Positions 1 to 63,820 of a DNA stretch of 64,000 nt are shown here, one piece after another. Position 1 is the stretch's first letter, and each line of letters opens with the position of its first letter. The stretch comes from Polytrichum commune (taxonomy: Eukaryota; Streptophyta; Polytrichopsida; Polytrichales; Polytrichaceae): the NCBI GenBank assembly GCA_950295325.1, contig OX485808.1, positions 29,532,527 to 29,596,526 of the forward strand. The letters run 5' to 3'. The notes under the pieces were generated by a model. The model was not told the DNA's origin and did no database searches. It saw only the letters and a list, made by a program, of their open reading frames with translations. The translations under genes and the position numbers were made by a program.

Positions 1-2338
1 CACTGGAGGAAGCTGTAGGCTTAATCGGTTTGCAATCATACAGGCAAGGTACTCCACAATTCGCGCATTTGTCATCCTCAGAGGCTTGAACATTGTTCTC
101 AACTTCAGGAGTAGTATTTTGGAGTCCCAGTTGGCGCGTTTCTCTATGTCCAGATGTGCGCGCAGATATGGTAGTGTTCCCTCCAACGCCCAGTTTACAA
201 GGTCAGTTGGAAGGAGGGGTTCTCGTGCCAGGTGGCAAACTAGGTAGACAACTGCAAGTGATGCACGAATTGGAATTCTCGCCTTGAGGTTTCGTAACCA
301 TATGAGTCGACCCTTTTCTCCATACGATGTCATCGGCTCCACACTGCATTTCTTCTTCCGTTTTCTTACATTTGTCGTTTTCCGAACTACAGGTTTTCCA
401 TCCTTGTCCAGCTCGTCATCTGCCCAGCAAAGAAATAGAATGCATATGTTATATCCCAAAAACATTTGTGCTTTAAGTGTTGTATGGAGGCTCATACTAG
501 AGTTCTACTCTAACTCAAGATCAATAGTTGTCATTTTTGCATAAAACACCTGCCATGTATCGTAATTTTTCTTAAAGGCAGTGTGGATTTTTAAACAAAG
601 GACACCCTAAATCGGTTCATTGAGGTCAAACTCATTTTGGCATGCCAAGAGGCACTAAAACGACTTTATATTTAAAATGTATGCAAGCAACCAATGGAAA
701 ATCATAGGGGACCAACTCCTGACAAAAAGCCCCATATACTTTAAAGATAACTCCACTTTCCTCAGTGAGATAGACAGGAAAAAGCTACTGTGTAGTCTCT
801 AAATTTAAAACTTGTCGAGGTAATCTGAGGTAATAAGTTTGAGGAAACAAATGCTAGGGATGAAGCGTACAGGACATGCTCACTATTACAAGAAGCAGAT
901 CTTATGATTCTGGGTAATTAGTGGGGCAATTCATGCAACGGTAAAAATGGCTTTTGGGTTGTGAAAACTCATCTTAAGTGTGAAAATGCAACAATTCACT
1001 CTAACTAGTAAAATATAACAACACTGTGGAAGAATGCATGCACAATTTCCTATGCTAGGGTTCAAGCATTGAAGGTGCTTCTTCCAAGAACAGCAGATTG
1101 TGGAGATGGCACCACAGACTGTTAGCATCTGATGAACACAAAAAGTGCTCTTGAACAGCCAACACTTGAAAAAAATTAAAGTAGATGATGATAGAGCCGC
1201 AACACTGAGCAGAAGATTCCTATGGGAAAAGAAAACGGATTGTCCAACGGGGAGAAGATTCTTAACACAAATTTGTGCAGGTAAACTTGAGAGAGGAATT
1301 TTAGGAAGAAATGTTACTCTATGCAATTGGAGGTGCTACCATGAACAGCCAAATCCAGAGATGGCACCACAGATTGTTGACTCCATCAGCATATGACAGA
1401 CACAAAGGGCTCTTCAACAGCCCATACGTTGGACAAATTTCGAGTAAATAATGATCAGAGTCGTAACACTCAGCAGAAGAAGAAAGAACGAAGGAATTGC
1501 CCGGTAGGGAGGAGATTGTTTGCACGAATTTGCAGGCATAAACTTGAGAGATTGGATTTCCAGGAAGCAATGTTACTCTATGCAATTGGGGGTTGTTTGC
1601 ACGACCAAGCGAAGTGACGAACAATTTACCTGAAGGAGGGGGCGAATCCGACCCGCTGGGCAAAACATCATCCTCCTTCTTCACCTTCTGATGCTGCAGT
1701 TCAGCCACAGCGAGAGCTTCGTCTGCCCAACCCTTGTCAAACACACATGTGCTGCGCAGAAACTTCATCCACACTGGCCCCAAAATCCCACAGATAAGAG
1801 GGTTAACCCCCCACCGCTGCACGAGGGCCTCACACTGCATCTGCACCAACATCTGCATGCCTTCCACATACACCTTCCTGACTTTGGCTGCCATCTTGTC
1901 GGAATCTGATGCCCCGGGCTCTCCAAATTCATCCCCTGGATCCTCTTTCATGTGGGCTTGGGATACGCCTACCCCGGGGGTCTGCTGCACCTGAGAGAAT
2001 GGCCCAAACTGCGACAACTCCAATTGGGAACCGAATTGTGACCCGAACTGAGATGCCTGCTGCAGGAATGTAAAATCCTCTTGTGTGGCGATGAGCGATG
2101 CCTGCTGAGACGCCAGCACATCGTCCGTCTGCGTTTGTTGCTGAGAATTGAGAGCAGCGTTCCGTGTCACTTTCTTCTCCCTCCGGAACCGGGCGTTGAA
2201 GAGTCCTATGTCATCGTCGAATGCCTCGTCCAGAAAGAATTGCGACTGCGATCCGCACTGGTTGCAGTAGGAGAATCCGTCGTCGCCGCTTCGCATGTCC
2301 ATGCTCCCACATACCCCGCACATGCCCGCCATCGCCAT
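1..2338 (-). CDS. TAF1B: TAF1B/Rrn7-like RNA polymerase I initiation factor, 5' part (runs off left edge)
   Basis: Two exons are visible: exon 1 at 2338-1630 and exon 2 from 419 to beyond the left edge, with intron 1629-420. Exon 1 starts at the ATG at 2338 and encodes an N-terminal zinc ribbon (CGVC at residues 7-10, CNQC at 25-28), a Gln-rich stretch at about 64-120, then a conserved block containing LVQRWGVNPLICGILGPVW. The exon 1 donor (TTCAG|GTAAAT) leaves one base, and the exon 2 acceptor (GGGCAG|AT) supplies two, so a GAT codon is restored. Exon 2 carries a basic linker and the Rrn7-like segment with LPTDLVNWALEGTLPYL, open to the edge. TAF1B/Rrn7 proteins (MEE12 in Arabidopsis) are TFIIB-like factors that recruit Pol I to rDNA promoters in the nucleolus. 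The 3' part lies outside the window. Family call is firm; the exact start is probable. Confidence 0.88.
1080..1605. repeat. Tandem duplication inside the TAF1B intron
   Basis: Two diverged direct copies of about 260-270 bp lie head to tail (about 1080-1336 and 1358-1605). Shared landmarks are GATGGCACCACAGA (near 1105 and 1360), the AACACTGAGCAGAAGA / AACACTCAGCAGAAGA pair (near 1200 and 1465) and ATGTTACTCTATGCAATTGG (near 1311 and 1569). No coding function is seen. The second copy ends about 25 bp before the exon 1 donor. Confidence 0.75.
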
Positions 2339-3370
2339 TGCTCACTAAACCTGAACTCTGAAACCCCGAACCCTTGCCCCTCCTTTCCTTTCCTTCCCTT
2401 TCCTGTCCTTTCCCTCTTTCTTTCAAATGGTCATCGTCATGTTTCCCGAAGCCTAATCTCTTCCTCCTTCTATCCTTTTCCTCTTTCTTTCAAATAATCA
2501 TCGCCATAGCTCCCGAATCCTAATCTTCCGCCTCGTGCTCTCTGTGCCTCTCTGTTCTCTCTCCAAAAGGTATTGCCATAATAAAAAGCATATATGGTCT
2601 TTCTATCTTCCTCTGTTTCTCACACGGGGGCATCATCATTGAGGCCCCCCAAAAAAACTGCGACTACGAGCCGCATTGGTTGCAATAGGGGAATCCGTCG
2701 TCGCCGTTTCGCATGTCCAAGCTCCCACACCCATAGCACATGCCCGCCATTGCCATTGCTCCCTAAACCCTTAACCATAAACCCTAGAACCCTGAACCTT
2801 CCTTTCTTTTCCCACTTTCTTTCAAATGATTATATCCATAGATCTCCGATTCCTACTCTCTTCCTCCTCGTGCTCTTTTTCTGCCACTCTGCTCCCTCTC
2901 TAGAGGACACCACCAAATCTCGCAAACGCTATTGTTTACCTCCTCTTGATCTTTCGATCTTCCTCTGTTTCTTTGTCTCTCGAAAGACGCAACCCCGTCT
3001 TCTAATTTCTCCATAGTCTTACTAATTTCCGCCTCCATCCGTTTTCTTTATTTCGAATGCTCGTTGCCATCGCTCCCAACTCTAATGGATTGCTTGTTTT
3101 CTCCTCTTACTCTCTCTCTCTCACTCTGTATCTCTCTGATTACTCTCTTCTCGGTTCCTCTCAGATGGGAAACTTCATACCTCTCACAAATTTAGATTCT
3201 CCCTCGTCTTCCCATGTCCTCTACCGATTTTTTTCATTCTCCATCCCTCCCGAAAGAGCGTCGTAAGTCAGATACAATTAGATTTGCTCAGCAAAAGCCT
3301 TGGGTTCTTCCTCCTCCGTCTTTCCGAAACAGGGTGCAGTGATAAGAGCCTTAAACCCTAAACCCTGATT
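2339..3370 (-). promoter_or_regulatory. TAF1B upstream region: repeated pyrimidine-rich leader and telo-boxes
   Basis: Upstream of the TAF1B ATG the plus strand is strongly CT-rich, so the transcript-sense strand is GA-rich. A segment with CTTTCTTTCAAAT followed by CATCGCCAT-like sequence recurs at about 2408, 2483, 2817 and, more weakly, 3040. Telo-box-like AAACCCTAA sequence occurs near 2765-2790 and 3353-3366. Telo-boxes are known in promoters of plant ribosome-biogenesis and translation genes, which suits a Pol I factor. The transcription start cannot be placed. Confidence 0.4.
2651..2756 (-). pseudogene. Decayed tandem copy of TAF1B exon 1 (zinc ribbon)
   Basis: Reading the minus strand from the ATG at 2756 gives a close copy of the TAF1B N-terminus: MAMAGMC, then C-x2-C and YCNQCGS with all four zinc-ribbon cysteines kept. 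The frame stops at codon 31, where the functional gene has CAG (Gln31) and this copy has TAG. Similarity fades at an A-run near 2651. It lies about 420 bp upstream of the real start and belongs to the repeated leader region. Confidence 0.8.
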
Positions 3371-3440
3371 GCAGCCAGCTATTATCATATAAGGTAGATT
3401 GACTGACTACTTTCTCTTACATTTTCCAACTACACTGCTT

Positions 3441-4380
3441 ATCCCCCCTTCCCACCTGACTAAAAGTTGGTTCTAACAAACGGGCATTCACACCATCGAC
3501 ATTATCTAGTGCCGAGCCTAGTTGGCAAATGATGTGGCATGGCTTAAAAGTGGAGGTTTTAAGCCTCAACCACTGACCCTCCCATCGGTACCTAAACATG
3601 AGGCAAGAATATAGGAGCTTTAAAAGTGTCGCCTCCCACCCAATGTTCGGGGAAAACTGACGGCTAGTTCATTATCAGCTTATGGATTTCCCCTCATGGC
3701 CGGTCCAAATTTCCAACCATCGGATGGCAATCCGACTATAATTTCAATCCTCCAGCAATTAGCCAATGGACCAGAAAATGTCCCGGAAATGTAGCCAATT
3801 CTTTTTGTGAGTTATTGGATTTCAGCCAGAAGCATCCAGAGCGCTATTTGTCTGGGGCATCTGATGATGCACTTGAGGAAGTACCCTAAACCTTAAACTT
3901 TTTGAATTATGCAACCTTTCCATGACCAAATCCAATTGCTTCTATGAAGAATTGGGGGACCCTTGGCCTTCAAGCGGTAAAGGCATTGCTAGGTTCAATT
4001 CATGCCAAGGATATTAACTCTTCAAATTTAAAGTTTTGAACATGCCTTTCTTTTCACTTATTCAAGATTTTGTACTAAGAAATGATTTCTAATAACTTTT
4101 CATACATTTTTTAAACAATTAGTGCCGATATGAATTCCATTTAATCGGATATTGGCCAATGAAAATATGAAAATATAGGCAATTGGCCAATTGATTTTAC
4201 AAAAGACCGGCTCTTGCCGATGTAAATTGGAAAAAATCCGACCCTTCGTAGCAACTACCGGCAACTAGCCACTAAGGCTTCAAAAACTTCCCGAACTCTG
4301 CTCCCACCCTTGTGATTGGTTGCTTTTTAGTCTTAGCTATGAGGGCACGAGGAGCCCCATTAACAAAAAACCGATGGTAA
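3441..4380. mobile_element. Older copy of a GCCCCCTTCCC-type MITE, interrupted
   Basis: The stretch 3441-3642 matches the left part of the elements at 4381 and 39572 (shared AAATGATGTGGCATGG and TAAAAGTGGAGGTTTTAAGC). The stretch about 4292-4380 matches their middle (CTTGTGATTGGTTGCTTTT). The 650 bp between is unrelated AT-rich sequence, probably a later insertion. A younger copy begins exactly at 4381, so the copies are nested. The outer right end was not found. Confidence 0.6.
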
Positions 4381-4891
4381 TGCCCCCTCCCCACTTGACA
4401 TTAGCTAAGCCTAAAAGTGGGTTCTTAAAAATGAGCGTTCACACCATCGACATTATCTAGTGCCGAGCCTAGTTGGCAAATGATGTGGCATGGCTTAAAA
4501 GTGGAGGTTTTAAGCTAAAACTACCGACCCTCCCATCGGTACCTAGACATGAGGCAAGAATGTAGGACCTCTAAAAGTGTTGCCTCCCGCTCTTGTGATT
4601 GGTTGCTTTTAGTCTTAGCTATGAGGGCACGAGGAGCTCCATTAACAAAAACCGATGGTAAGTATTAAGGCATTTGGGGATGGGACAAAAACTATCCAAC
4701 ATTCATTGGTTGGTAGATAAAGCAATGAACATGTGTGAAAGCTACTTAACTAAAACCTACTTGGAAATCTCCGGAGCAAGTTCTTGTAGGAGCATTGGGA
4801 TGGCCGGACGTGTCCGCTATAACCGAGGGAGCTTTACCCGGTTTTTAAGAAATGCTTTGGGTCTTGGCTAAAGTCAGGTGGGAAAGGGGCA
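4381..4891. mobile_element. MITE with TAA target duplication (PIF/Harbinger-like)
   Basis: This 511-bp element has inverted ends: left TGCCCCCTCCCCACTTGACA and right TCAGGTGGGAAAGGGGCA. It is flanked by TAA at 4378-4380 and 4892-4894. A related copy with TTA flanks is at 39572-40100. Three-base TTA/TAA duplications are typical of the PIF/Harbinger (Tourist) superfamily. No transposase is encoded; the 65-codon ORF inside is chance. Confidence 0.75.
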
Positions 4892-12430: not shown

Positions 12431-15400
12431 ATGGCTTCCCCCGCATTGCAGCAACGAACGGGGAGTCCATTTCAGAGAACCTCCTCGGGCTCCTCACCGA
12501 GAATACAGGCGCTAGGCTCGCACAGATCGGCTTCGATTTCGCGGTTCGAGCGAGACGCATTTTCGCTTGCTTCAGGGGGATCGGATGGGGGACCGGAAGC
12601 GGCAGCGGCAGCGGAGGCAGCGTCGCGAGCTGCCATAGAGGAGTTTCAGAAGGACAAGGTGTTTGCGAAGTTTTTAGTGGAGGATTTTAACGCCACTCAA
12701 TTTGCAAGCGAGGCGTTAAGCTCAGGGTCCGCGGCAGCGTCATCGGAGAAGCTGCAAGAAGGGATTCAACTCTTGGAGAAGCAGCTGAGGAGCGAGGTGT
12801 TTCTGCGGCACGATGAGCTTCTGCAGCAGCTGTCGAGTTTGAAAGAGACGGAGAGTGTGCTTACAGTGGTAAGAGCTGGGGTGGAGAGCTTGCAAGCTTC
12901 TGCGCAGAGAGTGAGGTCTGAGATCGCTGAGCCTTACAAACACATCAAGACCAAGTCGAAACAGCTGGCATCGTTGCACGATACTGTGGAGTTGCTCAGA
13001 TCAGTAATTCGGGCTCTCAAGCAGCTGAAAAGACTACAGGAATTGATGGAGTCAGGGTCGGCCAATGTGGACCTTGCTAAAGCTGCGCAGCTGTACAATG
13101 AGGTTGAGACACTGAGAAAAGAGAATGATCTTGCAGGGGTTGAGATTCTGGATGATGAGATCCCTTGGCTCTTGGAAGTTGGTAGTCAAATTCGGAGCGA
13201 GGCTATGAAAGGGTTGGAGAAGGGGATGGAGGCACTTAACCAAGCGGAGGTTGGGAGCATTCTGCAGGTTTACTACAACATGGGCGAGTTGAAACCAACT
13301 GTGGAGTCATTGATTGTGAAGTATAAGGCTTTGGCTGTTAAGAATGTTGGTGTGGCATTGGATATGAAGGCAATTTCTGCCAGTGTTGGTGGCTCTCTTG
13401 GATCTGGAGCCATGCAGCGGAGTGGCGCCCATATGGCAGGTGGATCTAGAGCAAGAGAAAGTTTGTGGCAAAGAATGGGAGCATGCATGGATCAGCTGCA
13501 TACAATTGTGGTTGCAGTGTGGCACTTGCAACGTGTGTTGGCCAAAAAAAGAGATCCCATCACTCATGTTGGATTCCTTGACGAAGTTATGCAGGTTAGT
13601 GACAATTATGGGCCTTTAACACATGGGGTTTGAAGTGGAATATACATTGCATAGTTGCTTCCCTGTAGACGTAGAATATCACTTTTTTCTTTCCTGAACA
13701 TCCTCTTAGCCATGTTTGCCAGAAAAACAGATCCCATTACCCATGTTGGATTCCTTGATGAAGTCATACAGGTAGGTAAAAATTAGTTTTAATTAAATGG
13801 GGATTAAAGTGGAATGCTCATTGCATATATGCTTCCCTCTAGACACAGAATATCACTTTTCTCCTTCCTGATCATCCTCCTAGCAATGTGGGATGGTTTT
13901 AATTGATATTGGTTATTCTTGTCTCACAGGCAGGTGATTCCATGTTGACAGAGCGAGTATGGGAAGCGGTGGTCAAGGCTTATGCTAATCAGATGAAATC
14001 TGCTTTCACAGCATCCAACTTTGTGAAAGAAACTTTTGTTGCAGGATACCCTAAGCTCCTGGGAATGGTGGATGGGTTATTAGAGAGACTGGTCAGGGAT
14101 ACAGATGTGAAAGGTGTACCTCTTGCCATCAAGGCGGAGGCCAGAGAACAACTTGTATCGGCTCTAGAGCCATTTCAGACTGCCTATTTGGGAAGATCGC
14201 TTGGACGCCTATCTGATCTTGTCAACAGTATGTTCCCATCCACAGTTCGGGGAAGTATTCCAACTCAAGAACAGGTCTCTAAGTTAGTATCTCGCATTCA
14301 AGAGGAGGTGGATGTTGTGAAGTCTGATAAAAGGCTTACACTTTTGGTGCTGCGGGAGGTGGGGAAGATTCTTCAACTCCTTGCAGAATTGGCTGAGTAC
14401 CAGGTAATATGTCATGTTTTATTTAGGGTGCAACATGTGTTGAGATCATTGTTTCCAGTTACTCTTGTTTTTTATACATATTCATATCTGCTATCAAATC
14501 TGCAAATTGAGAAATTTGGAGAAGTTAGACTGACTTGTATCTGTTTGTTTCTGTTTGATATCCAGACTGCTACAGGTCTTGAATCACGGCAAGTTATGGG
14601 TCCTGTGACGCCTCAGCAACTCAAGAATATCACACTCTGTCTTCAGCTACAGGATGTGCATACACGACTGTCAGCCCTGCTGGCTGGCCTCCCAAGTGCA
14701 GCATCTGAGGTTCTGTCGGCCTCTTTAGGTGCTGTCTATGGGGTTGCATCAGATTGCATTACACCTCTTTTCAAGGCAATGGTGGAAAGGCTGGAGAGCT
14801 GCATCTTGCAGATACATGACCAAAGTTTTTCATTGGAGGATATGGAGGCTAGCATGGGCAATGGCTGCTCCAAGTACATGGAAGATGTGCAGAAATCTAT
14901 AATGCATTTCCGAAGTGAATTCCTGTCAAAGCTATTGGCAGGCACTACTTCTTCTGTGGCACCTGTATCTGGAGAATTGATATCAGCTGGTTTAGCAAGG
15001 AAGTTGGCTTCTCGCGTTCTCTTGTTTTGGGTTAGACACGCCGCTATGGTGAGGCCTCTTTCCGAAGTTGGAAAGCTACAACTGATCAGTGACATGGCTG
15101 AATTGGAGCTTGTGGTTGGTCAGAGTTTGTTTCCAGTGGAGCAGCTGGGTTCCTCTTACCGTGCTTTTCGGGCATTCAAACCCCTTGTATTCCTCGAGAC
15201 CACAGATTTTGCAACAAGTCCCTTGCTCCAAGAGTTGCCCCCCAGTGTTGTGCTCCATCATCTTTATACACGAGCACCTGTTGAGTTGGAGTCCCCAATG
15301 AAACGCACCAACCATTCTCCTCAGCAATACTCGTTGTGGTTGGATTCCCATACTGAGGAGGAGGCTTGGAAAGGCATAAAGGCAACACTGGATGAGTATG

Positions 15401-18620: not shown

Positions 18621-19253
18621 TCAGAAAGCATACTAACCAGAATAACCAAAATGGTTTTTGTGAAGAAATCTCAGCTCATCCATGCCTCTAATGCTAACTA
18701 ACTTGAATCTACCAATGATTAGCCGAATGGTTTCCTTTGATGCCTGCCTCTCAATTTTCCCAATTCTAAATATAGGACACAATTGGACATACCACAATTG
18801 CAGTTCTCAGTCTGAGCATTTGTAAAAGAATTTGAAGTACGTGCTCAGGCTAACCAGTCAACATGATTTTTTTTTACCTCTTTTTTTGGGGGGGTGGGGA
18901 CGCTATGTGACCATTTAACAAGCACAATTATCTCCAGTTTGATAATGGATAAACATTATAAGTATGAGCTTCAAAAATTAGGAGGAAAGTGGCTATGGCC
19001 TAGAATTGGATTTGCTAACCACCCAAAATTACCTCCTGTCAAATTACCTCCTCCAAAATTACAGGCTTGACATGCATTCAGTGTATCTATCCTTGCAACA
19101 ACTCTGCAAGGGACTGAGTGCAGTGGAGGAGGACGTTCATATAATGAAAAAAAATCTTGAGATATGTTCACAATCTATTTCATGTTCAAGAGCTGTTTGG
19201 AGTTGTTCATATCTACTAAACCAGATCTGAATGAGATACGAATTTGACAAGGT

Positions 19254-19760
19254 AATGTCCATAACAAGCTCTTGGAGACATTGACCGCTTCATTTCCAGA
19301 CCCGTAACAATAGTCAATGCCTTGAGATACAGGAATGAAAACAACAGAAAGTTCACACCTGCTTCTGATTTGAACCTGCTTCGCACTACTGCGATGATCT
19401 ATCCTAAAAATTGTGATCTGCACCTTTGGGCCAGTGTGGATACTTGTTGATGTCCATCATTACAAAAACTCTGTTGAAAGGTGCATACAATCTACAGTGA
19501 GGAATATTTCATTCTCTATTCTCATGATGGAAACAAGAGAAGGTCATGTGATGGATTGGAAACCCTCACATCATTCATCTGAGTATAAAGGCTATCAAAT
19601 ATCAAGGTCAAAGTGTAACTAAAGTACAAAACTTGCTAGAAATGCAATAAGATCTTGAAAGGATAATGTACATAATAAGCTCTTGGAGACATTGAATGGT
19701 GGCAGTTACCTTTACATCAGTTCTAAACCTGTAACAATATTCTATACCTAGAGATACAGG
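19254..19760. repeat. Direct repeat downstream of the GOS1 gene
   Basis: A segment containing AAGCTCTTGGAGACATTGA occurs at about 19266 and 19678, followed in both by a GTAACAAT block and then a GAGATACAGG block. The offset is about 410 bp and the copies have diverged. Confidence 0.65.
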
Positions 19761-24000: not shown

Positions 24001-26729
24001 CCGGTAGGGTATAGTAAGGTTAAGGCACCTATAACCGATAAAATGAGAGAGTTTCCATCTATTTAAGAGGAGTAATAGCAGGGAATTGTTTTCCTTGCCA
24101 ACATAAACAAAAAATCTAAGTAGAATGTCATTTAAAAAAAAATTCGTGATTATAAAAATTGCTACAAATTTCGAAGCAATATATTTACATTAACACATAG
24201 TCAATTTATAGGTTAACCCATAACCATCATCTGGTATCTAATGCTTGATTATGATAAATTAGATCTGGTTTTCCAGCCCAAACACAACGACGCAATTATA
24301 TACCAGGGGCGTGCTACAACAGTTGTCAAAACTCTTATGAGGGTAATCAATCACCAGTTGCCACCACATAATCTTCAACTCCGTTCGTCTAAAACATATA
24401 CATCTCATCCACGCCGGCATTACATGACCCTAGTGAGCGATTATATGGACATGGTCGGCAATGGATGCCTTGACCTTACGAAGGGATGGTTCACACGTAT
24501 GGGTAGGTCCTGGTTGTAATGACTAAAATTAACAATTTTAATGGTAAGATAACCCAACTTTGAGTTTAACCTAAATGTCATCCCATTCACACCTACAGAC
24601 GACAGTACCAGAGATATGACCTATCTAGAGTGGGGTACTACCTTTATTCACACATGGCCATGATTGAATTCGTATTGCTTGTCACATGTCACCATGTCGA
24701 CATGTCATGTGGTCACTAGTAAGTCACTAGTCAATATCATTGTTTTCAAATTTAGTTAACTATTGTAGTATACATGTGGTAAGTTGCCATTGAGGTTATG
24801 CACTAGTTGTGTCGTTAGGTTATAGCTATAGGGTAACTTAACCTAACAATGGTAACTTAATGTATGAGGTAAGTTAACAATGGGCCAAATGTGCATGTAG
24901 CTAGAAACAATCATGATGCTAAGAAAAGATACCCATGGGCGTGAACCATGCCTAAGTTAGGTAGTGTGTGGTGAAGGGCACTACACTAAAATATACTATA
25001 TAAGGTAGATAGGTCTTAAATGGTTACTAAATGCTAACTAGCCCACTTCTCCTAGAATATGAAACATGTGATCAAGGTTATAAAACAAGAAACAATGAAT
25101 GACCACTATTAGTGCACCGTAGACTAGGAGTGGAATGAATCTTATATGAACCCAAAATGGCTAATTATAAAAGTGGTGACATGAATAGGATGCAATGATA
25201 GGCTAGATGCAATGATTGGCCAAATAGGTCACTTTCACACCACTTGGGATCACTTTTGGGTGTCAATGAGTTAACCATTTTGTGTGCATTCATGCAAAGT
25301 AGGATATCTTTTATGCTCAAATCAAGGAGACTCTACTATACAAGTAGGGGTTTGGACTTACTTGCCTCTTTTGGGGATACATAACTAATTATTTACTCGA
25401 AATACAATTACAAAACAACTTGCATTGCTCATCAATTCCTCTATTGCACAACTTTCAAGCCACTTTTTTGGTCAAATCAACTTATTTTCATTGTTTTCCA
25501 TTTTCTTACCTAAGCACAAGATGGTTAGCAATCCAAATCGTGCCTTTAGCCATTTGCCTCATAATTTTGGAGCTCATATATGAATATCATATACATCATC
25601 AAAGTGAAGGGTCTTGCGTTCATTAAGTGGTCATAGAGGTCCCCATGGTCATGTCAATCATTGAGCCTAGAATGGTTAGTTAATTTTGAGCATGTAGTCC
25701 AATCTCATTTAAAACACAAGTATTTATGGTGCTAGCTCTTACATAGCATTACTAAGTAGATACATGATGGTCTCATTCCAAAGATATAGGTTGCATTTAA
25801 AGTGCAATGACAATTAGAGTTGTTTGTCAGAAAGTTCACAACACTTAGTTTGAGTGCTCCCAAAACACAAGGAATCCCGGGATCATACGAGAATAATGCT
25901 TATGTGGTACATGGTCCCATGAAAACGCATCCAAAGAGTCGTGTAATGTTATGCATATCCACGCCTAACCATAATGATACACCCAAATATAAGTGTCTAG
26001 ATTATTGTTGTTTGTGTTTTACTAGCCACATCTACCTTGATTGGTCATTTGCCAAGTCTCACGTGCTCGTCTATCCATGCAAAAGGTGTTTCATCTACAC
26101 CTTCCAAATTCCAAACATCAATCGAATCTTGGTTTTATCTCATAAACAACTTAGGTAAGGTGGACGGATCCTCAATGTTTATTTTTTCTAACAAGCCCAT
26201 TTCTCCTAGGATATGAAACATGTGATCAATACGAGGTAGTTTTATCAAATCCAAATCAAGGTTGTTGCCATTTTCCTCATAATTTTTGGAGCTCGTGTGA
26301 ATATCTTATTCATCATCAAAGCGGATATTCTTTTGTTCATTATATGGTCACACATGTTTCCCCAGTTATGCTGACTATTGGACATAGCATGATTACCATA
26401 TTTTGAGCATGCAACCCAATCTCGTTTATACACATGTAACTTACTTTTGACATTCGTTTGCAAAGCCACACCAAACCACGTGTCACTCATGTACATGTGT
26501 TTGATTAAGATAAGTAACCGAATTAGACATGTCTACCTTAAGTTGCATGGTGACCAAGTAGGTAGGTGCTTGTGGTGAAGGGCAATACACCAATATAGAC
26601 TAATTGCTCTTAAACAATTGCTCATTCAAATGGGAGAGCATTTCCAAAATTATCATGTGCTTTTATATGCATATAGAAAGTTTTTCATCTTTCACCTCCA
26701 ATTATTGTCCATGACCGGACTGGTAAACT

Positions 26730-28335: not shown

Positions 28336-28884
28336 GGGCCAAGTTCCATGTACCGGTCCCGGTCCGTTTTTTTTGAAATAAATGGGTGGGCCGGTGAAAA
28401 GAGGGTGGTGCCATGTGCCCATCCCTCTCACCCAAGGACCGGTACCCCCCATGGATGGGTGTCCCACGTTTTGTGTTGTGGAAGAACGGGTGCCAAAGGA
28501 CCGGCGGTCCTAACGGTAACGTGAAGGACATGTGCCGGTTAGAGAGCTATGGTGACCGGATCGGCCGGTCGCCTAGGGTACACCCTTGGATACTAAAGGC
28601 CACTTTGTTCTTCTAATCCCTTCTTTTGAGGAGTACTCCTAGGGAACCGTGTATTTTATGATGTTTTTAGAATCTAGATGACCTTCATTGCCGGTGACCT
28701 TCATAAAGTGTCATGTCTTATCACTCACCAAATTTAGTTAGAAAGTAGGAAATCGGAATAAACCGGCACCCCACATAGAAGTACCCCTCCATAAAATGGG
28801 TGACATCACCCATTTTTTGGATGATGTCACCCGTTTCTCACCCATCGGAAAAACGGACCGGGACCGGTACATGGAACTTGGCCC
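28336..28884. mobile_element. Harbinger-like MITE with long GC-rich inverted ends
   Basis: The 549-bp element has nearly perfect inverted repeats of about 33 bases. They start GGGCCAAGTTCCATGTACCG, contain ACCGGTCCCGGTCCG and are bounded by TTA at 28333-28335 and 28885-28887. Subterminal GGGTGG/CCACCC motifs are frequent. The interior is GC-richer than its surroundings. ORFs at 28289-28616 are by-products of the repeats. Confidence 0.85.
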
Positions 28885-39245: not shown

Positions 39246-39250
39246 ACCAT

Positions 39251-39323
39251 GACCGTGTGGCCCAATGGATAAGGCGCTTGCCTACGGAGCAAGAGATTCT
39301 GGGTTCGATCCCCAGCATGGTCG
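39251..39323 (+). tRNA. tRNA-Arg (anticodon ACG)
   Basis: 73 bases fold into a full cloverleaf. The acceptor stem GACCGTG pairs with CATGGTC (one G-U), followed by discriminator G. The anticodon stem is CTTGC/GCAAG with loop CTACGGA, giving anticodon ACG (read as ICG). The T loop is TTCGATC, with stem GGG-/CCC. The internal A box (TGGCCCAATGG) and B box (GGTTCGATCCC) are present. A T-run (TAACTTTTTA) just downstream fits RNA polymerase III termination. No intron. Confidence 0.96.
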
Positions 39324-39571
39324 TCGTAACTTTTTATATTATATTTGTTCTTTCCACATATAAGGCTGTAACTAAGATCAAAAGGTTAAAATTTACATTC
39401 TCGTCCCTCCAACTTAAAGAGAATCATCAATGACAGCATTCATTCCATTCCCACACCTTGAACATTATCATCAATAACAATAATTTAGTTGGGGTTTTCT
39501 ATGTGGCGGATGTCTTTAAAGGTAGGTTTTAAATTTTAATATAGAAGTAACCCCACGGAGACCTAAGTTTA

Positions 39572-44431: not shown

Positions 44432-47203
44432 CTAAGCAGCTATGACTTCCTCCTCTTCTACGTAGGTGGAAGGGTCGTAGTCGATGAACTCGTCATCCTC
44501 ATCATCGTCCTCATCGAAGCCTAAGCTGAGTGCTTGCATTTTGAACCCTGCTTGCTCGATGATTTGCACCAAACTAGATGCGACACCAGTTGCTTGGATG
44601 TTGGTCTGCTTTGTGAGCTGCAACCGTTCATGTACAAAAATTAAGTTACCAACCCAAGCGATAATAGCATACACGACAGCAAGTACAAAACTGCTCAAGA
44701 ACAATATCGTTGCAAGTGATGAGGTTCAGACAAAATGATTGTAAGTCATTTGACCAGGGGTCACTCAAAAGAATCAATCTGCATGGAAGAAGCCACCTTC
44801 CACACTGGCATACCAACCGACTTGTGTTCAGTTTCTGCTACAACTCCAGAGGTAACGGGAAGATTCAAGCAAATTTTATATAGCATGTATACTAAAACCT
44901 CAATTTCGGCACAAGGAAACCAGAAGAGATAAGAAAATACTCTAAAGTTGTTTTTAGAAAGCCAAAAGTTTATTTTATTCAATAGAAACACCCTAATTTG
45001 AATCAAGAACAAATATGCTCAATAGGTGGATCGCACAAAACTCTTAACACAAAAACCCACACAAATCTGTCAAGCAGCAACTATTGAGACAATGCAACCA
45101 TTGCTTTAAGACTGGAGAACGGCTGTATACCAAAATAAACCAAATAAAGATCCTCCTTATCCTAGACATATAATAGAACTCATTTCAATCTGGAGCAACA
45201 TACGAGTGAAAACCCCAAAACCCTTGATAAAGCCATGTTATTTAGAGTCCATGTGGCGATATGAGTGGTGAGACACCTGTGGAAATGTGCAACTCTGTAG
45301 GTTGAGTTTCCCAATAGTGCTTAAACCCTTAAACGCCTGAAGGGCTAAGCAATTTCTAATATGTCATAAGAATAACATTTCCAGAGGCACCATCAAATGA
45401 TCATATCCATACGCCTCAAATACAAAAGATACTGTTGGTCCTCTCACAACGAATTCAGAAGCAAAAGCATGAGAAATTTATCTTGATTACAATTCTCATT
45501 GTTTTCTATGAGAAACTCAATATAACTGGTTGAAATTATAGATACTATAGGTTAGTGAAAAGTTGCAAGAACAATATGATCTGAAATTGATTCAACTGTC
45601 ATAACGTCACTGGAATTGTGAGCACTTCATGACTTAAAGAGGATAACCATTGATGAAAATTTTAAGATCAAGCTTTTGGAGGTGGCACACAATTTCAATA
45701 GCTATATCCGAGAAAGCAAATTAATAGCGTAGATTCACTTATTTCTGAGTAAGATCCGATCATTTGAAATTGAGAGTAACATTTTGGGAGTTCTAGGCTA
45801 TTACATGTTCATATGACAGAAATACTATGAGAGCATCCTCCAAGAAGAGGCCAACGCAGATAGGGTTTCTCTGCTACCCTTGTGGTGGAGAAAATTACCT
45901 CAACAGTGGCAGCACCTTCAGAGATGTAAACTTTCACGTTGCTAACACCCTCTGTTGCCTGCATACAAGCCAGGAATGTCAGTTTCCATTGAGTATTCTT
46001 TCCATTCGAGATCAGCCAAAGACAATTCTTCAAAGGAGGAATCATTAAAACACTACCTGTAAAATGCTCCATACTAGGTACTCATTCAGATTTCAAGGTC
46101 CAGGAATTTACCTCCAGAGCTTTAGTGACCTTAGGGATGCCACCATCGTTCAACGAACCTTCCGCCTGCCAAGTTTCAAAAACTTCAGAACAGCACGATT
46201 GTGGATAAAAACAGGAATTTTGACAATCAAACATCGACAGAGAATGTCATTCCACTTAGAACCACAACAAGAAGTGTGCACCACAAACTCTATCAATCTG
46301 GGAGCCTCCACAAACCTCAGTTAAATCTGTACAGACCATACTGAGCAAATTTTTAGTTCAAGGCTTCCCAGAGCCTTGAATACTGGTGACGAGCATAGTA
46401 AAAGGCAATGGCAAGGTAGCCTAAGAAACGCCAAAACCTGCCAAAGACTTTCACGTATGACATTGTCGAAATTCACATGCAGGGGGAGGACGACACATCA
46501 CACAGGTCACAAAATGTTTGAGAAAGCCTATTTTAAGGAGAAAGTTTACGAATTAGACACCACGATGTACATGGTCATTGCACAACAAAAACTCTCGAAC
46601 TGTTCATTACAAACTCCATCAGCCGTGGGAGCCTGCAGAAACCTCAGTGAGCTCTGTACACGTGACTCCGAATTATTATTTCGCTTCAAGGCTTGCCAGA
46701 GTTCTTGAACAGTGGAGACGAACATAACATGAGGCAATGGCGAGATAACCTAAAAATTGCCTAAACCTGCCGAAGACATTCATTTACATATGACATTGTG
46801 GAAATTCACATGCAGGAGGAGGAGGAGAAGACACCCATCACAGGTCACAAAATACTTGAGAAAGCCTCTTTTGGAAAATGGAGGTTTAGAAATTACAAAC
46901 CTTGAAGTACATGGACAGGCTCTCGGCGGCTTCCTCCACTGCAGATTCTCCAGAAGACACGGCCCCCTCGGCTACCGCGCTCCTTACTGCCACAAAGCTA
47001 TTTCTGCTGCCACTCCTGGACGCAAATTCCACCGCACGCGGCCGCAAGCCGAAAGTGGACACAGAGGAGCAGCCGCGCGGCCGCACCACTGCGGCGAACG
47101 AAGCCTTGGTGGACCTCGCAAGGCTTACCTTGCTGCTAGCTCCTACCACTCTCTGCACGGTTGCGAGGTGGCAATGCACCGCCGCTGTTGCTGCTGCCGC
47201 CAT
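44432..47203 (-). CDS. Plastid-targeted protein with an HMA-like fold lacking the CxxC metal motif
   Basis: Four exons, all in phase 0: 47203-46901, 46165-46112, 45958-45899 and 44617-44432; two are only 54 and 60 bases. The product is 200 residues. Residues 1 to about 75 are rich in Ala, Ser, Val and Arg with almost no acids, as in a chloroplast transit peptide. Joined exons give SLSMYFKAEGSLNDGGIPKV, TKALEATEGVSNVKVYISEG and AATVELTKQTNIQATGVASS, then LVQIIEQAGFKMQALSLGF. This has the strand-helix-strand-strand-helix-strand order of heavy-metal-associated domains, but the metal-binding Cys pair is replaced by EGSLNDG. The C-terminus is a highly acidic tail. The small exons were found by phase and splice sites and fit a continuous HMA-like domain. 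Molecular function is unknown; direct Cu binding through CxxC is excluded. Confidence 0.82.
46230..46905 (-). repeat. Tandem duplication (about 340 bp) ending in HMA-gene exon 1
   Basis: Two direct copies: about 46230-46565 and 46575-46905. Shared landmarks are GAGCCTCCACAAACCTCAGT / GAGCCTGCAGAAACCTCAGT, GAAATTCACATGCAGG and GGTCACAAAATGTTTGAGAAAGCC. The right copy runs into the end of exon 1 (GAAGTACATGG); the left has a decayed equivalent (GATGTACATGG) at about 46562 without the donor. Confidence 0.8.
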
Positions 47204-48539: not shown

Positions 48540-49660
48540 TGTCAAGTTATTGCCTCGTCGTCAAGCTATGGACCTTGAACTCAAATACTTCAGTTAAGTG
48601 ACTTATTTTTGTGAGTCACTGTACATGCAAGGGTTAGGGTTTTATGCATAGTTTGCCGATTTGAATAAAATCATAGCAAAGACAGAAGCCACTAATTCAC
48701 TATGTTCCATTCCACCACTAATTCACTATGCTCCATTCCACCACAACAAGTCCTCATTAAACTGTTGCAAAGCAAGTGAGAAGTACACTAAATATTGTAG
48801 TTAGTGTCATATGGTATATTGTTTCATTGTGGAACTTTTCTAGTGACACCATTTATGAATAGGTCTACAAGTATTGTCATCCCAACTTACTTTTCTTTCA
48901 TCCAAATGCCAATTATTGGAACAAATTTTGGTATAATTTGCATCCTAACAAATATGTGATAAATATATTGTTATGGATGATTGAAATTTGCATGAAAAAT
49001 CATTTAGTAAGTGACAGTAATTGCAACACTGTAAATCTATAATCCCTGAATTTTTTTTTACAAGGAATGACAAATCATGTTAGGTTAACATTCAGTGTTG
49101 GTGACACTACACTGGGGTTTACAATTAGTATTAAGCAAGACAATTAGAATTGGTGACACTAAATAGAATATTCAGTGTAGTAGTGCGTCCTGCTGTCTCC
49201 ATTGAATAAAGCCATGGCAAGGATGCAGATTATTAATCTTCACTGTGTTACTTGCTCCCACCACAAGGGCACATTCAACGCTTGAACCTGAATTGGACGA
49301 TGCACATATCTCAAATATCTAATATATGATCAGTTTCACATAATGAATGTTCTGTTGGCCTTACTCAATCCTTTGCAGATTAGTTGCAAGGATGGACACC
49401 TTGAGTGCATGCATATCAAGCCTACAGGCAGAGAGTAAATTTGAATGCTATGAAATGAGAGGTAGACACGAGGCTTAAGGTTTCTAAATCCTGTACCTTA
49501 CCCACACTTTGCCGCCAAGTTGAATAAACCTGTTGCAAAGACGCAGTCCACAAATCTTCACTGTGTTCCATCCTCCCATTGCACGTCCTCATTAAGTACT
49601 TGCAAAGCGCCGCAGGGATCACTGTATGTGAGAAGCAGTAGTGTACAATGTCCTTTCTAA
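48540..49660 (-). pseudogene. Decayed tandem copies of the 3' end of the F-box/LysM gene
   Basis: The last coding bases and 3' UTR of the gene at 50009-52018 recur downstream in at least two clear copies (about 49640-49430 and 48785-48560), plus a fragment near 49190-49290. Each has a diverged form of CTTTGCAAGAGTTTAATGAGGACTT and GGAATGGAACACAGTGA, then TTTATTCAA..CGGCAAA. None keeps an open frame with splice sites. A CACTA-ended MITE (48786-49177) interrupts the farthest copy. Confidence 0.75.
48786..49177. mobile_element. MITE with CACTA...CAGTG ends inserted in a decayed exon copy
   Basis: 392 bp, beginning CACTAAATATTGTAGTTAGTG and ending GAATATTCAGTG, flanked by TA at 48784-48785 and 49178-49179. 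It shares its core with 16914-17185. The left flank GTGAGAAG and the right flank GTAGTGCG together reconstruct the GAGAAGTAGTATTGTG-like part of the F-box/LysM last exon, so it inserted after that exon was duplicated. Confidence 0.75.
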
Positions 49661-50008
49661 GGGCTTATTATGTACATTACCCATTCCAGATCTTCCTGCA
49701 TTTAGTGCCAGTTTCGCGGGTATGGACAATTATGAACAGCTCTCGAACATGAATTGGATAATAAACATATCTCAAATCTTTAATAAATGGTCAGTGTCAC
49801 ATAACGAACACTCCGTCTGCTGCACTCAACCCCTTGCAGAATTGTTGCAAGGATGGATACCTTGAACGCCCGCAGGCAGGAAGTAAATTTGAATGGTCTG
49901 GATTGAGAGATAGACATGAGGTTTAGGGTTTCTGCATCGTGTAACTTATGCACAGTTTGCCGGTTTGAATAAAATCGTAGCGAAGACGCCTTAGTCCACT
50001 AAATTTCC

Positions 50009-52018
50009 TCATTGTGTTCCATTCTCCCACCTTAAGTCCTCATTAAACTCTTGCAAAGCGCCGCGCAGATCGCCATCGGCAAGCGAGAAGTAGTATTGTG
50101 CAGTGCTGTCGTCCACCCGCAAGCTCCGCTTGAGAGACTCCATCACCTCCCTCTTCAGCCGGCGTTGCGCCCTGGCACGCAATGCCGCGGCCTTCTTGTC
50201 GGGTTTCGTGCCATCCAGGTACAGGACTCCGACCTCGCGCTTGGCGAAGGCGTCGGTCTCTATGAAGCACGTTTGGCCGGCAAGTAGCTCCGGGTGGGAC
50301 ACGGGGATGAGCAGCCGCTCGCGCGAGTGGATGCCGTGGTCGCTCATCATGTTGTTCACTCTCCGAATCTCCGGCACCTACAGGTTTGGGACGAAAATGT
50401 AAGGTCATATGAAGACGGCAGCCCGCTTCTTACGATTAATCTCCTTAATCAATGAAGTCATCACATAGGACATCAATTTCTGAAATCATTTATAACTATC
50501 TTGTTTGTTGGGTCCCTATGAAAACTTGATTCATAAGCACTAGTACACCTCTCCCACGCAAAAAATATTTAGCAGAAGGAATATAAAAATGAAGGATCCA
50601 CATCATGACTAAATTTTAGTATATTTTGGCCACATGGCACACGTGCACCCTTGTGATTGCACTACTGTAGTGCAAAGGGGAAATCCTCTTGAAGAAGGTT
50701 GATGCATCTACGTGTTGTGATGACAAGATGTGACATCACAAAATTGTGAATCAGTTGCATCATTTGTTCTTGACCGCTCAACTGTAAGTAGAGTTAGGGC
50801 ACACTTCCATGTGCCGGTCATATCAGCGAAAGTCACTACCACGATGACAAAATTTGCCCCCCCTCATATCCACATGGAAGTATGCTAGCTTTCATCCGGG
50901 GGGGCAAGAGTTGGTGCCTGGCATAGTTCTAGGAGGAAGTTGAAGTTTGAAGAGCCGCCTCTCTATTTCCCAACCGGAAATTGAATTTGAGGTAGGGTAA
51001 AAAAACGATTTGCATGAACTCGTTGGTGTTGAGTTTGAGACTACCATATTTAACACTAAGCTTGCATAATCGAAGCTTCCCCCAATTTTCATGTTTTCTA
51101 GGTTTATTCTTATTATTCTAAAATTTTGAGGTATCAAGTGTACATATCCTTTCATGCAACATTCAAAAATGGATAAATGGGTTGACAACCACTAGCCAAG
51201 TTTGCATGTTTGACAAGTCTAAGGCAAATTGACTCATAGCTTGACCCCCCTACTCAATATGAAAGTGCTCAGCCAACAAAAATGTCAACCCATCCTGTCC
51301 AATACTTCGCCAACATGAACGAAAATCATTCCTTCACGGCAACAACCAGCACATGTATACCCCACATATAATGTAAGTGAACCTAAAATGGACACATTTA
51401 GCTCTGCACCCACTTCTTCTAAGATATTAAACATGCAATTAGTTCAAGATGATTAGCAAAACCTAATTGAAGCTAGAACCATTCTCCTCATGTTGACTAT
51501 TGGACCCAGAATAGCTAACAAATTTTGAGCACATAATCCAATCTCTTTTAAACATATCTCTTTTCGGTGCCTGTTCTTGGATCCACACCACTTAAATATA
51601 GGTGTTTTATTAAAATACGCAACCGAATTAGGAGAATTACCTGCACTCGGTACTTGACTGCCAAGCCTGCAATAGTGTCTGTGCGTTGTAACGTATGCGA
51701 GATCACAAATTGTCCAAGCTGCCCTCGCCAGAAACTGCTGGACAAGGGCCTTCCAACAACCTCCTTCAACCTCCAGGGGATTCTGAATGCAGCAGCCAAA
51801 ACTTCAGGGTCGGCTGCAATGGAGTGCCAAAGCTGGCACACACATGCAGCCTGCCCAAGTGCAAGGACCGGCAACCGCTCCAATATGATCCTCCACAAAT
51901 CACCAGTGAGAGCCGATGATGAGCTTGTTTCGTGTCGTCCAATCAGAGCATTCCTCCTTGTTTCCGCATCTTCAACCTTCAACGTCTCCAAGAAGCTTGT
52001 CACATCTACCCATCCCAT
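50009..52018 (-). CDS. F-box/LysM-domain protein (At1g55000 type)
   Basis: Two exons, 52018-51641 and 50377-50009, joined in phase 0, give 248 residues. Residues about 36-85 are an F-box (ALTGDLWRIILERLPVLALG, then QAACVCQLWHSIAADPEVLA). A WRLKEVVGRPLSSSFW block follows, then a LysM domain formed across the intron (FVISHTLQRTDTIAGLAVKY, then EIRRVNNMMSDHGIHSRERL). The C-terminal part (LKRSLRVDDSTAQYYFSLAD, LRGALQEFNEDLRWE) is conserved in this plant family. F-box proteins are substrate adaptors of SCF ubiquitin ligases; the ligand of this intracellular LysM is unknown. There is no signal peptide. The upstream TTG at 52021 is not used as start. The intron (50378-51640) contains dispersed-repeat sequence up to the donor. 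Confidence 0.92.
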
Positions 52019-52029
52019 CAAATTGCAAG

Positions 52030-53270
52030 TGACCAGCGTTCAATTTCGAGTTAAGTCTGTGTTAATGCATACCTACCCTTCCAGAGTATCTTTTCAACTC
52101 ACTGATGTAATTCATTTCACGATGATGTTCTTCATTATTCAATGTCTCCAAGAAAAGTCTCCAAGAAAAGTCTCCAAGAAAATCATCACATCTACCCATC
52201 TGATTAAAATGCAAGTGACCAGCAGCATTTAATGTTGAGTCAAGTGAGTGCTGAAAGGTACCCTTCAGGGTTTAAGATGTTGTCAATGTTAACTTACCGT
52301 TGAAGTTCCAATGATCCAGTCAACTCTTTTAGGTCTGTCAAGTAAATTGACAAAATTTAGAAATACATATTAAAATTGATGCCAACCCTGTGTTTGGTAG
52401 GTGTTGATGTAATGTCGTAATTTGATGTGGTTGAATCATTGAGAAATCAGTGTTGATGACATAAGTATTGTGTTGATATTTGTGGCATCTCAAATTGTAA
52501 CTGACCGACGTTGGAAGTCGTCCAGTCAATGTTGATCCATACCCTTAAGGGTTCATATATTTTCAATGCTACCTCACCATTTAGCCAATGATATGTTCAA
52601 CATCGATTCAACTCATAGTTCAACCTTTTAGGTCTGTCAATGATAAAATGTAGGAACGGGATTGGAATTGATGCCAACCCTATGTTCAATAGGCACTCAT
52701 TTAAATGCGGAAGTTTAATTAGATTGAATGAATTTGAAACTAGTGTTGATAACAAATGAATTTAGAAATTTGTGATTTGGTTTCCTGACTAACCTCGGCC
52801 AGAAGTGCCCACTTGCTCTGCCAGAATGTCCCCTCTTGAATCCATTGCCTCGATATTTAGAGCTGAACCTGCATCTCAAAATGCAAGTGACCAGCATTTA
52901 ATGTTGAGTCGATGTTAATCCATAACCTACCCTTCGAGGTTTCATATCTGTTCAGTGCCTACTTACCATTCAGCTGCTAAGGAGTCATTCAACATTGATT
53001 CAACTCATGGTTCCACCTTTTAGGTCTTTCAAAAACAAATATAGAACCACAAAGTTAAAAGTGATGCCACCCATTCTTTGATAGGCATTAATTTGATGTT
53101 ATGATTTGATGTGTTTGAATCAATGTGAAATCAGTGTTGATGATCTATGAATTTAGATGTTTGTAATGGGCCTCTTTACTGACCTTGGCCAGAAGTGACC
53201 GCATCCTCTGCCAGAATACTACTGCCTCTTGAAGCCATTGCCTCAATGCTTAGAGCTGAACCTGGATTGT
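52030..53270 (-). repeat. Tandem array in the 3' part of the LysM-only gene
   Basis: Three to four diverged direct copies of a 300-400 bp unit. Landmarks are CAAGTGACCAGC (52026, 52210, 52888), TTTTAGGTCTGTCAA (52328, 52626, 53018 as TCTTTCAA) and GATGCCAACCC (52378, 52671, about 53071). The two rightmost units each carry a mini-exon-like block (52868-52794 and 53261-53184). Confidence 0.78.
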
Positions 53271-55942
53271 TGCAAATTTGTCGAGAACAGATTTGTGACT
53301 TTTGGAAGGTCTCAGCTGTTTCAATTGCTCCAGATGCTTTCCTTGCTCTATCACGTGAACCATGCAGATAAATCACGGCCAATTCGCGGTCAGCTTGTTC
53401 GTCAAACTCAATGAAACATGTCTTCCCAGCTAGGAGCTCCGGGTGAGTAATTGGTATCAACAACCTTTTGCGACAAAACACTCCATAGTCACTTTTCATA
53501 TTGTTGAGCTTCCTAATCTCCATTGCCTGCACGATTCCATTCATCCCGGCCATCAATCGCCACTATCCAGGTCACTCAAAGACAACAACCTCTTCAATAC
53601 TGGAGTCACCATCCAAACGTCATGAAACTGTCCTTAACCCCCTAGAGGCCTGGGAGACCAAAACGTGGTTTCAGATTGATCAGATTGATCAGATTGGGGA
53701 CAGTCAATGACAATACTGCATATTTCCGCCATCTGGATATAGTCTGAATAAATCCTCCATAACTTTCTTTTGGAAGCCAACTCCAACCTGGACATCAAAT
53801 CCAAAGATTATACCCAGTCTACAAACCTCACTGCAGAGGAAAGCTCATCAAATTGCTTTCCATTTTGAACCTAGGTATTAACCATTTTAAAGCTAACATC
53901 TAGGTGTGCATTGTCTCTCCGCATAATATATTGTGGCAAGGGTACCAGTATGGGAAGAAGCAAAATAGATGCAGCACCGGGACTTCCCAGGAGGTCACCC
54001 ATCCTAGTACTATTCCGGCCCAAAGGCGCTTAACTTCAGAGTTCTGATGGGATCTGGTGTAGTAGCCTTGGTTTGACCGCATCACATACAGCATGATGTG
54101 GCGCTCATACTTATATTCTTTTGGGACGCGCTCTGTGCGGATGGATAACTAATTGAGATGTGGGTTCGCGCGTGGATAAGATGGTAGTAATGTCAGACCA
54201 CTTGGACAACAAACTTGTGAATTGCATTAATGCAATGAGCCGAATACGCTCCCCGATAATTCCAGCGCAAAAAAAGAGTCAAAAGTGGATACAAACCAAT
54301 TTCTAAAATTCGAGATTAATTCCGCATAGACGTGCGTCGAGCTTCTTCTTTAAGCAGACAAAAATGGCAGCGAAAACAACAGCCTGGACATCAAATCTAA
54401 AGACTAAACGCTTTCTACAAATCTCACCGCTCATCAAATTGCTTTCCCAAGCGAGTAAAACTTTTAGTAATTTGAAATCACTTAGACAACAAGATTGTGA
54501 CATGCGTAAATGTAATGAGCCGGATATGCTCCGCGACATTCCCAGCACGAAAAGTCAAAAGTAGATACATTCATTTTCTTGAAATTCGAGAGGAATTCCA
54601 CATACAAGTGCGTCGAGATTCTCCCTAAGAGAGGAAACGAAACGGCAGAGAGAACAAGAACAACAACGTGGACATACAAACCTCACCGCAGATGCGATAG
54701 CTCGTCAAATTGCTCTCCCGAAACTAGTCGCAAGGTACTAAGCGATTGGATATTTAGATGTCTTGGACAAAAAGCTTGTAAATAGCGTAAGTGCAATGAT
54801 CCTAATTGGTCCCTGACAATTCCAGCGCGAAAGTCAAAAGAGGATACATACAACCTCTTAAGTTCGAGACGAGCGTCAAGCTTCTTCCTTAACAAGAAAA
54901 CAAACAGAAAAAGGCCAACAACAACCTGGACATGAAATCCAAGGAACGAACGCGGTCTACAAACCTCACCGCTCATCAAATTGCTCTCCCAAGCTACCAA
55001 GGCGTTGAAAATTTGAGAGACCGAGAGCTAGGAAAATTGGACTGACCTGTAGAGGAAATGTTAGCTCATCAAATTTCTCTCCCATGCTAGTGAAATGTTA
55101 GTAATTTGAGAACACTTGAACAGCAACTTGTAAATCGTTGCGTAAATGCGATGAACCGAATATGCTCCCCGACAATTCAATTCCAGCGCGAAAAGTCAAA
55201 AGTAGATTACATTCATTTTCTTGAAATTCGAGACGAATTCCACATACAAGTGCGTCGAGAATCTCCCTTCAGAGAAGAAACGAGACGGCAGAGAGAAGAA
55301 CAACAACAGCAACAACTGGACACACAAACCTCACCGCAGACGATAGCTCGTCAAATTGCTCTTCCGAAACTCGTCACAAGCTATCTAGGAAGTTGTGAAT
55401 TTGATGTCTCTTGTACAAAAAACTTGTGAATAGCGTAAATGCAATGAGCCGAATATGCTCCCCAACAATTCCACGAAAATGTCAAAAGTGGATACATATA
55501 ATTTCTTAAATTCGAGAATAATTCCACATAGACGAGTGTCGAGCTTTTCCCTCGAACAGACTAAAACTGGCAGAGAAAACAACAAACTGGACATGAAATC
55601 CAAAGAACAAACGCGGTCTACAAACCTCACCGCTCATCAAATTGCCCTCCCAAGCTACTAGAGAGTTGAAAATTTGAGACAAAGAGGTAAGAGAATTGAA
55701 CTGACCTGCACATCGTACTTGTGAACCAAGCTTCCGAGCGTGTCCCACCGCTGCACCGTGTGCGACAGGGCGAACTGGCTCAACCCTGATGAGTTCATTC
55801 TGAAGAAGGCGTGGGAAGAGCGTGGCCTGCCTACGATGCAGTCAAGCTTCCAGTACGCCTTGAACTGATCCAATTCCATGGATTCCACGTCCAGGCGGGG
55901 CTCCTCCCACAGGAACCGGAAATCCTCTGCCTCCATCGCCAT
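53176..55942 (-). CDS. LysM-only paralogue of the F-box/LysM gene
   Basis: Exon 1 (55942-55706, 79 codons) and exon 2 (53526-53176) join in phase 0; the simplest reading gives 195 residues. Exon 1 lacks an F-box. It begins MAMEAEDFRFLWEEP and enters the family at YWKLDCIVGRPRSSHAFF, matching WRLKEVVGRPLSSSFW of the neighbour. The LysM domain follows (FALSHTVQRWDTLGSLVHKY, then EIRKLNNMKSDYGVFCRKRL). After LAVIYLHG the sequence leaves the family: the conserved C-terminal RSLRVDDSTAQYYF block is missing. The stop at 53176 comes five bases after a good donor (CCAAG|GTCAGT), so further splicing into duplicated mini-exons is possible. Likely a tandem duplicate that lost its F-box; it may be a decaying gene. 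The intron holds a 5S sequence and tandem repeats. Confidence 0.7.
53968..54083 (-). rRNA. 5S rRNA gene or 5S-derived element
   Basis: The minus strand from 54083 to 53968 reads as plant 5S rRNA of 116 bases: GATGCGGTCAAACC at the start, GATCCCATCAGAACTCTGAA and GTTAAGCGCC in the middle, TAGTACTAGGATGGGTGACC (internal C-box) and CCTGGGAAGTCCCGGTGCTG near the end. The ends pair (GATGC/GCATC). A TATAAGTA lies about 30 bases upstream, where plant 5S genes carry a TATA-like box, and TTTT follows the 3' end. It is a single copy inside an intron rather than a 5S array. It could be a dispersed 5S gene, or part of a Cassandra-type TRIM LTR, which carries 5S sequence. Confidence 0.85.
54190..55700. 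repeat. Five tandem repeats of about 285 bp in the LysM-only gene intron
   Basis: Direct units share AAAGTCAAAAGTGGATACAT (about 54277, 54552, 54829, 55194, 55482), AATTCCACATACAAGTGCGTCGAG-type sequence, and CCTCACCGCTCATCAAATTGC (54423, 54683, 54963, 55328, 55625). Spacing is 277-286, except one 365-bp unit that carries an extra block with a donor-like ACTGACCTG (about 55043) resembling the end of exon 1 (55700). A decayed unit lies at 53715-53880. Confidence 0.85.
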
Positions 55943-60110: not shown

Positions 60111-60130
60111 AATATAAGTTAATAAGAATC

Positions 60131-60139: not shown

Positions 60140-60146
60140 AGCTTGA

Positions 60147-63100: not shown

Positions 63101-63820
63101 ACCAAGAAAGACCTTGGAATAAATAGTTCCACTGATGCCCAATGATTTTAATTACAGATGAGAACACGGATGCATGAGGTGGTCTCAGCTGGGCTTGGAG
63201 TCTTGGAGGTACATATTGACATCAGTTGCAACCATATCTAAGTTCTTACTTTTCTCAGTTTTGGTTTGATATAAAGTATTGGTGTTAGTTAAGCTACCAA
63301 AGTAGCTGATTCAATTGGAACGACCTTCATCAAATGAGCACTTGATAGAGGATTATTGACTTTTGTCATTAGGCAGACATCATCTCAACCTTACTGCATA
63401 CGGTATTCATTTGACTGTGCATTTTGATGTGTCCTCATTTTCGTTTTTTTCAACAGCTTTCTTTGGTATTTAGTCAAATCTCTTATCCCTCATTCATTCC
63501 TTAAGAGGCCTTTAACTAATTTTTAGTGATTCATCTTGGTTTACCAATCAATATGAGTAATTGCTTACTGTAATGAAATTCCTGTGCATATAATTCCATA
63601 TGTTCATGTCTATTCTAATTTGGAGAATGCTATTTCTAACTTGGGTCATCTACTTATCCCCTCAAATGTTGCACATAAAATTTTACAATGCAACAAAGCT
63701 TCTTGTTTTTCTAATCATCATTTTCTTCACTACACAGGTCTCAATGAAACATTCTGGATCACTTTTCTTGTATTCGGGAGATAATGGAGGAGCTTTTGCT
63801 AAAAATAGCTATGGAAATTT
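60147..63820 (+). CDS. RNL: Plant tRNA ligase RNL, N-terminal part (continues past right edge)
   Basis: Four exons so far: 60147-60278, 62447-62950, 63158-63208 and 63738-63820, the first three in phase 0 and the last leaving two bases. The visible protein is about 256 residues of a family of about 1,100. Exon 1 (MGSRAVQALSLRHCRAFIRF, Arg/Ser-rich) looks like an organelle-targeting extension. Exon 2 starts GKASSNQQWKPKP and ends with the diagnostic QAQIRATFYPKFENEKSDQE. Exons 3 and 4 give MRTRMHEVVSAGLGVLE and VSMKHSGSLFLYSGDNGGAF, then AKNSYGN, whose Lys (residue about 251) is the likely adenylated lysine of the ligase domain. RNL joins tRNA halves after intron removal and also bZIP60/IRE1-cleaved mRNA in the unfolded protein response. 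Exon 1 is the least certain part. Confidence 0.9.

Follow-up and report, generated by a model that had tools for sequence, protein, structure and literature searches.

Old small tandem duplications in and beside the genes of a 64,000-nucleotide stretch of the Polytrichum commune genome

The genes in a stretch of 64,000 nucleotides of Polytrichum commune (hereafter the window; C6:29532527-29596526 in an assembly of 408 Mb) are accompanied by local tandem duplications with units of ~100-640 bp. These are probably old, independent events that arose by fill-in and end-joining at staggered double-strand breaks, were tolerated and have been decaying neutrally. The window illustrates well, on a local scale, a process that is ordinary and known. 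A preliminary description had extended the duplications to the whole genome and had seen in them a supply of new exons, which goes too far.

The duplications were assessed by comparing the window with itself. Within 1 kb, self-BLAST gave 26 direct pairs (E<=1e-8), 19 of them separated by <500 bp and 7 by 500-1000 bp, whereas no inverted pair was found even within 1.5 kb. As a chance control, pairs were counted at E<=1e-8 in 20 dinucleotide-preserving shuffles of the window, which yielded zero pairs. The self-comparison therefore supports the earlier reading that local duplications are present. The same orientation bias was observed in random loci of the genome, where 35 pairs within 1 kb were direct and none was inverted. 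When dispersed repeats were removed, eleven local tandem-duplication clusters remained in the window, and seven of the eleven touch a gene. Unit lengths range from ~105 to 635 bp, and the gaps or overlaps between adjacent copies in most cases do not exceed a few tens of bases. The TAF1B/RRN7 zinc ribbon, COG5, a PPR protein and an F-box protein of the window have Pfam support. GOS1, the HMA-fold gene and the LysM genes were identified by exon reading, and their borders are less certain.

Two duplications, both unique in the genome, are carried by TAF1B (RRN7-like, reverse strand). One lies in intron 1 (1068-1593; copies 1068-1334 and 1326-1593; unit ~258 bp). In the other, the leader and the first 128 nt of the coding sequence have been copied upstream (2211-3030; copies 2211-2611 and 2633-3030). 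This upstream copy keeps the ATG and four zinc-ribbon cysteines and runs for 30 codons before a TAG; at 2651-2757 (reverse strand) it constitutes a potential 30-codon upstream ORF containing the four cysteines. In COG5 (forward strand, with COG5 Pfam hits), the 3' end of exon 1 and the start of intron 1 are duplicated at 13536-13889 with a unit of 177 bp that is also unique. The unit begins with 59 nt of exon 1 and continues into intron 1, and the second copy is entirely intronic and retains a donor as well as an acceptor-like site. The 3' flank of GOS1 carries a spaced direct repeat (19214-19760; separation 411 bp) ~290 bp past the stop codon. HCF152 (forward strand) has a tandem duplication of a 311 bp unit ~1 kb 5' of exon 1 (32409-33009) and three ~105 bp copies in intron 1 (34860-35165). 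The latter end at the acceptor of exon 2, whose CAG motif has been copied along with the units. In the HMA-fold gene (reverse strand), the end of exon 1 with its donor is duplicated together with intron 1 sequence (46213-46917; unit ~330 bp; unique), the second copy being intronic. The end of the terminal exon of LysM-B (reverse strand), including the stop codon and 3' flank, has been copied downstream (49276-50105; unit ~460 bp). The intron of LysM-A (reverse strand) holds a layered array with periods of ~280 and 635 bp that reaches 6 bp into exon 1 (54181-55709), and its several layers show identities of 62-80%. Outside the genes, we found a tandem duplication with a unit of 264 bp (27322-27836) and nested local duplications that include a 14/28-bp minisatellite and are unique in the genome (41106-42451). 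The duplications listed earlier for TAF1B, COG5, GOS1, HCF152, the HMA-fold gene, LysM-B and LysM-A were thus recovered, whereas one claimed case, the cluster at ~52.0-53.3 kb, belongs to a dispersed family.

Many sequences in repeat-rich DNA that look like tandem duplications belong to the interior of mobile elements, and each unit therefore has to be checked against the whole genome. Nearby insertions of dispersed repeats can imitate a tandem duplication, and this is indeed the case for 51981-53267, 3460-4661, 25530-26438 and the repeats around a DCC1 gene at one of the random loci. The region between the LysM genes was rejected as a local duplication, since the cluster there contains a dispersed ~300-bp family with many genomic copies (52486-52776 and 52868-53168). 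Members of this family (52486-53168, ~70-76% identity) also cluster elsewhere, about ten of them lying within 4 kb at C2:61647182-61651061. A dispersed ~300-bp family is likewise found 5' of HCF152 exon 1 (33633-33934), and at least 39 further copies of it occur at 73-81% identity. Dispersed array-forming repeats thus account for the 52-53 kb cluster, but they fail to account for the single-locus duplications. In the search of all 408 Mb, the COG5, TAF1B, HMA and 41-42 kb units matched their own locus alone, and the duplicated unit of a gene at random locus L002 was also without another match in the genome. For the HCF152 and LysM units, no second match was present among the 40 candidates scored, a weaker result because these were mostly high-copy families. 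The main cases do not recur at many sites as a dispersed or transposon-internal repeat does, and 52486-53168 does recur in this way. As a general explanation, insertion of dispersed repeats is extremely unlikely. Assembly artefacts, which had been raised beforehand as an objection, are practically negligible: the copies differ by ~15-30%, which far exceeds what false duplication of a single sequence would give.

The copies are direct, adjacent head to tail, of single-locus origin and within ~10-1000 bp in size, as is characteristic of tandem duplications from staggered breaks. In addition, their ages vary and the coding part of the borders is less diverged overall. Fill-in and joining of a staggered double-strand break would produce a tandem copy. 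A duplication across one exon border would leave one intact border in place, and since one such border always remains, the event would be tolerated. The spare copy in the intron, leader or flank would then drift neutrally and may be kept in genic DNA of low turnover. The prominence of the duplications near genes could be due, at least partly, to genic non-coding DNA being unique and slow in turnover, whereas intergenic DNA is repeat-rich. At the junctions, where gaps or overlaps range from a few bases to a few tens, the copies are too diverged for breakpoint microhomology or filler to be read, so that repair of staggered breaks is a mechanism that we infer. Unequal exchange or template switching could lie behind part of the copies.

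The raw divergence of seven genic cases of the window and one random gene ranges from 14.5 to 24.9% and is heterogeneous (chi2 = 23.5, 7 df, p = 0.0014), which indicates several separate events. Together with the different layers of the LysM-A array, this upholds the earlier view that duplication has happened repeatedly. When the four border-spanning cases were pooled, the coding part differed at 52 of 291 positions (17.9%) and the rest at 245 of 983 (24.9%; p = 0.012). The values for coding part and rest are 13.6 and 21.2% in COG5 and 15.3 and 31.2% in TAF1B, and LysM-B is an exception. A lower coding divergence fits a constrained gene copy beside a freely drifting spare. Every genic case is old, none being below ~14% divergence, and there is thus no sign of a high current rate. 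Since the genic cases cluster at ~15-25% divergence, one may also consider a burst in a past period, during which the lineage, or some districts of the genome, fixed intragenic tandem duplications unusually fast, so that a large share of the genes acquired decoy splice sites. We regard this as decidedly unlikely. A confinement of young duplications to non-genic DNA was also considered and is suggestive at most, as the two non-genic random cases that were tested, one young and one old, are parts of high-copy elements.

Supply of new exons and splice sites by the duplications was part of the original proposal, to which regulatory peptides may be added. Donors or acceptors with intact GT or AG have been copied in COG5, HMA and HCF152, and the duplicated start of TAF1B carries all four zinc-ribbon cysteines, which counts in favour of such a function. 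However, the decoy exon of COG5 (13710-13771) measures only 62 nt, and its inclusion causes a frameshift with a stop within 30 codons, while the TAF1B copy terminates as described above. Neither is therefore open and phase-compatible as an exon. In COG5, moreover, a single border is involved and the copy lies within an existing intron. No open in-frame extra exon and no new intron were found among the duplications of the window. In genome hits to about eight dynein heavy-chain genes, no duplicated exon was found, a search in which short border copies would be missed; the presence of these genes agrees with a plant that has motile sperm, as bryophytes do. The idea of a source of new exons and splice sites is accordingly not sustained, and a functional role of this kind is highly unlikely. 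Decoy copies with frameshifts or stops count for the view that the duplications are neutral leftovers.

Because the window was picked for showing the pattern, and any test within it is post hoc, an independent sample was required. For comparison, twenty random 10-kb loci (200 kb) on six contigs were used, all within the first 29 Mb of the contig, and genes in them were called by Pfam and exon reading. This small sample contains five recognisable, partial genes of together ~17.7 kb. One of the five, an ADH/MECR-like gene (L002), has a single-locus tandem duplication with three copies in its apparent intron 1 and is an independent case of the same kind of event. The statement that nearly every gene is affected consequently applies to the window, where six of seven genes contain a duplication and all seven do so if the flank is included, but fails for the genome sample. 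The proposed generally high rate of duplication in genic DNA was not supported either, in view of the one positive gene in five, the old age of the copies and the genic and non-genic counts within the random sample, which do not differ (p = 0.57).

Preferential duplication at genes, driven for instance by open chromatin or by breaks linked to transcription, would be the alternative to passive retention. Within the window, the seven gene-touching clusters lie on genes that make up 30% of its length (rotation p = 0.047 without flank), although the same test gave p = 0.066 with a flank of 500 bp and p = 0.19 with 1 kb; this enrichment is borderline and post hoc. Clusters per kb are more frequent in the window than in random DNA (p = 0.003). 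The genic density is 0.37/kb in the window and 0.06/kb in the random sample; at the density of the window, ~6.5 events would be expected in the random genes, in which one was observed (Poisson p = 0.011). A purely passive model leaves this difference unexplained. In the 182 kb of random non-genic DNA, eight clusters were counted that had been judged local from the sample. Genome-wide searches with two of them (L021 1-463 and L006 477-998) placed them inside elements that occur in dozens of copies, so the independent non-genic events number at most six, and a lower true non-genic background favours a rate aimed at genes. On the other hand, the choice of the window, the outcome for the random genes and the lack of any young genic case speak against such a rate, and we consider it rather unlikely. 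Enrichment at genes is neither shown nor excluded by these data.

According to PMC7407515 and PMC8355091, small tandem duplications in plants have reportedly been attributed to patch-mediated repair of staggered breaks by Vaughn and Bennetzen in 2014 and by Schiml, Fauser and Puchta in 2016. As far as those accounts go, the duplications of the window resemble such events in being direct, adjacent, tens to ~1000 bp long and confined to a single locus. They differ in age, as the plant repair duplications in the same accounts are recent or induced, whereas those of the window are old and have lost their junction signatures. A review and a further article describe small tandem duplications among natural insertions in rice and their formation from nickase-induced staggered breaks in plants (PMC7407515; PMC8355091). 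Introns can also be gained through tandem duplication, a process that is known and related (PMC4974935; Rogers AGGT model). As in that model, an exon/intron border is duplicated and splice signals are copied, but the extra copy in the window enlarges an existing intron or flank, and neither a new intron nor a new exon was found there. The same article describes an 83-bp intronic tandem duplication that leaves the gene structure unaffected (PMC4974935). Were duplications of this kind general among the genes of a plant with motile sperm, the share of break repair in intron growth and in the supply of decoy splice sites would become measurable.

Several other elements were observed in the window and the random loci. 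A ~555-bp element with perfect terminal inverted repeats of 37 bp lies at 28335-28885; with at least ~40 copies at 94-99% identity, it is a recently active MITE-like family. The LysM-A intron contains a full-length 5S rRNA match (53966-54084, reverse strand, 107.6 bits) within a ~130-bp stretch, scattered copies of which occur on several chromosomes at ~88-97% identity. The copies are either 5S genes that lie dispersed or an element of 5S origin. Two of the 20 random loci have an NLI-interacting-factor phosphatase domain in long ORFs (L014 3688-4470 and L015 2726-3568) with similar surroundings, and these ORFs possibly belong to a repeated element carrying this domain. Finally, a tRNA-Arg(ACG) gene is located on the forward strand of the window at 39250-39325.
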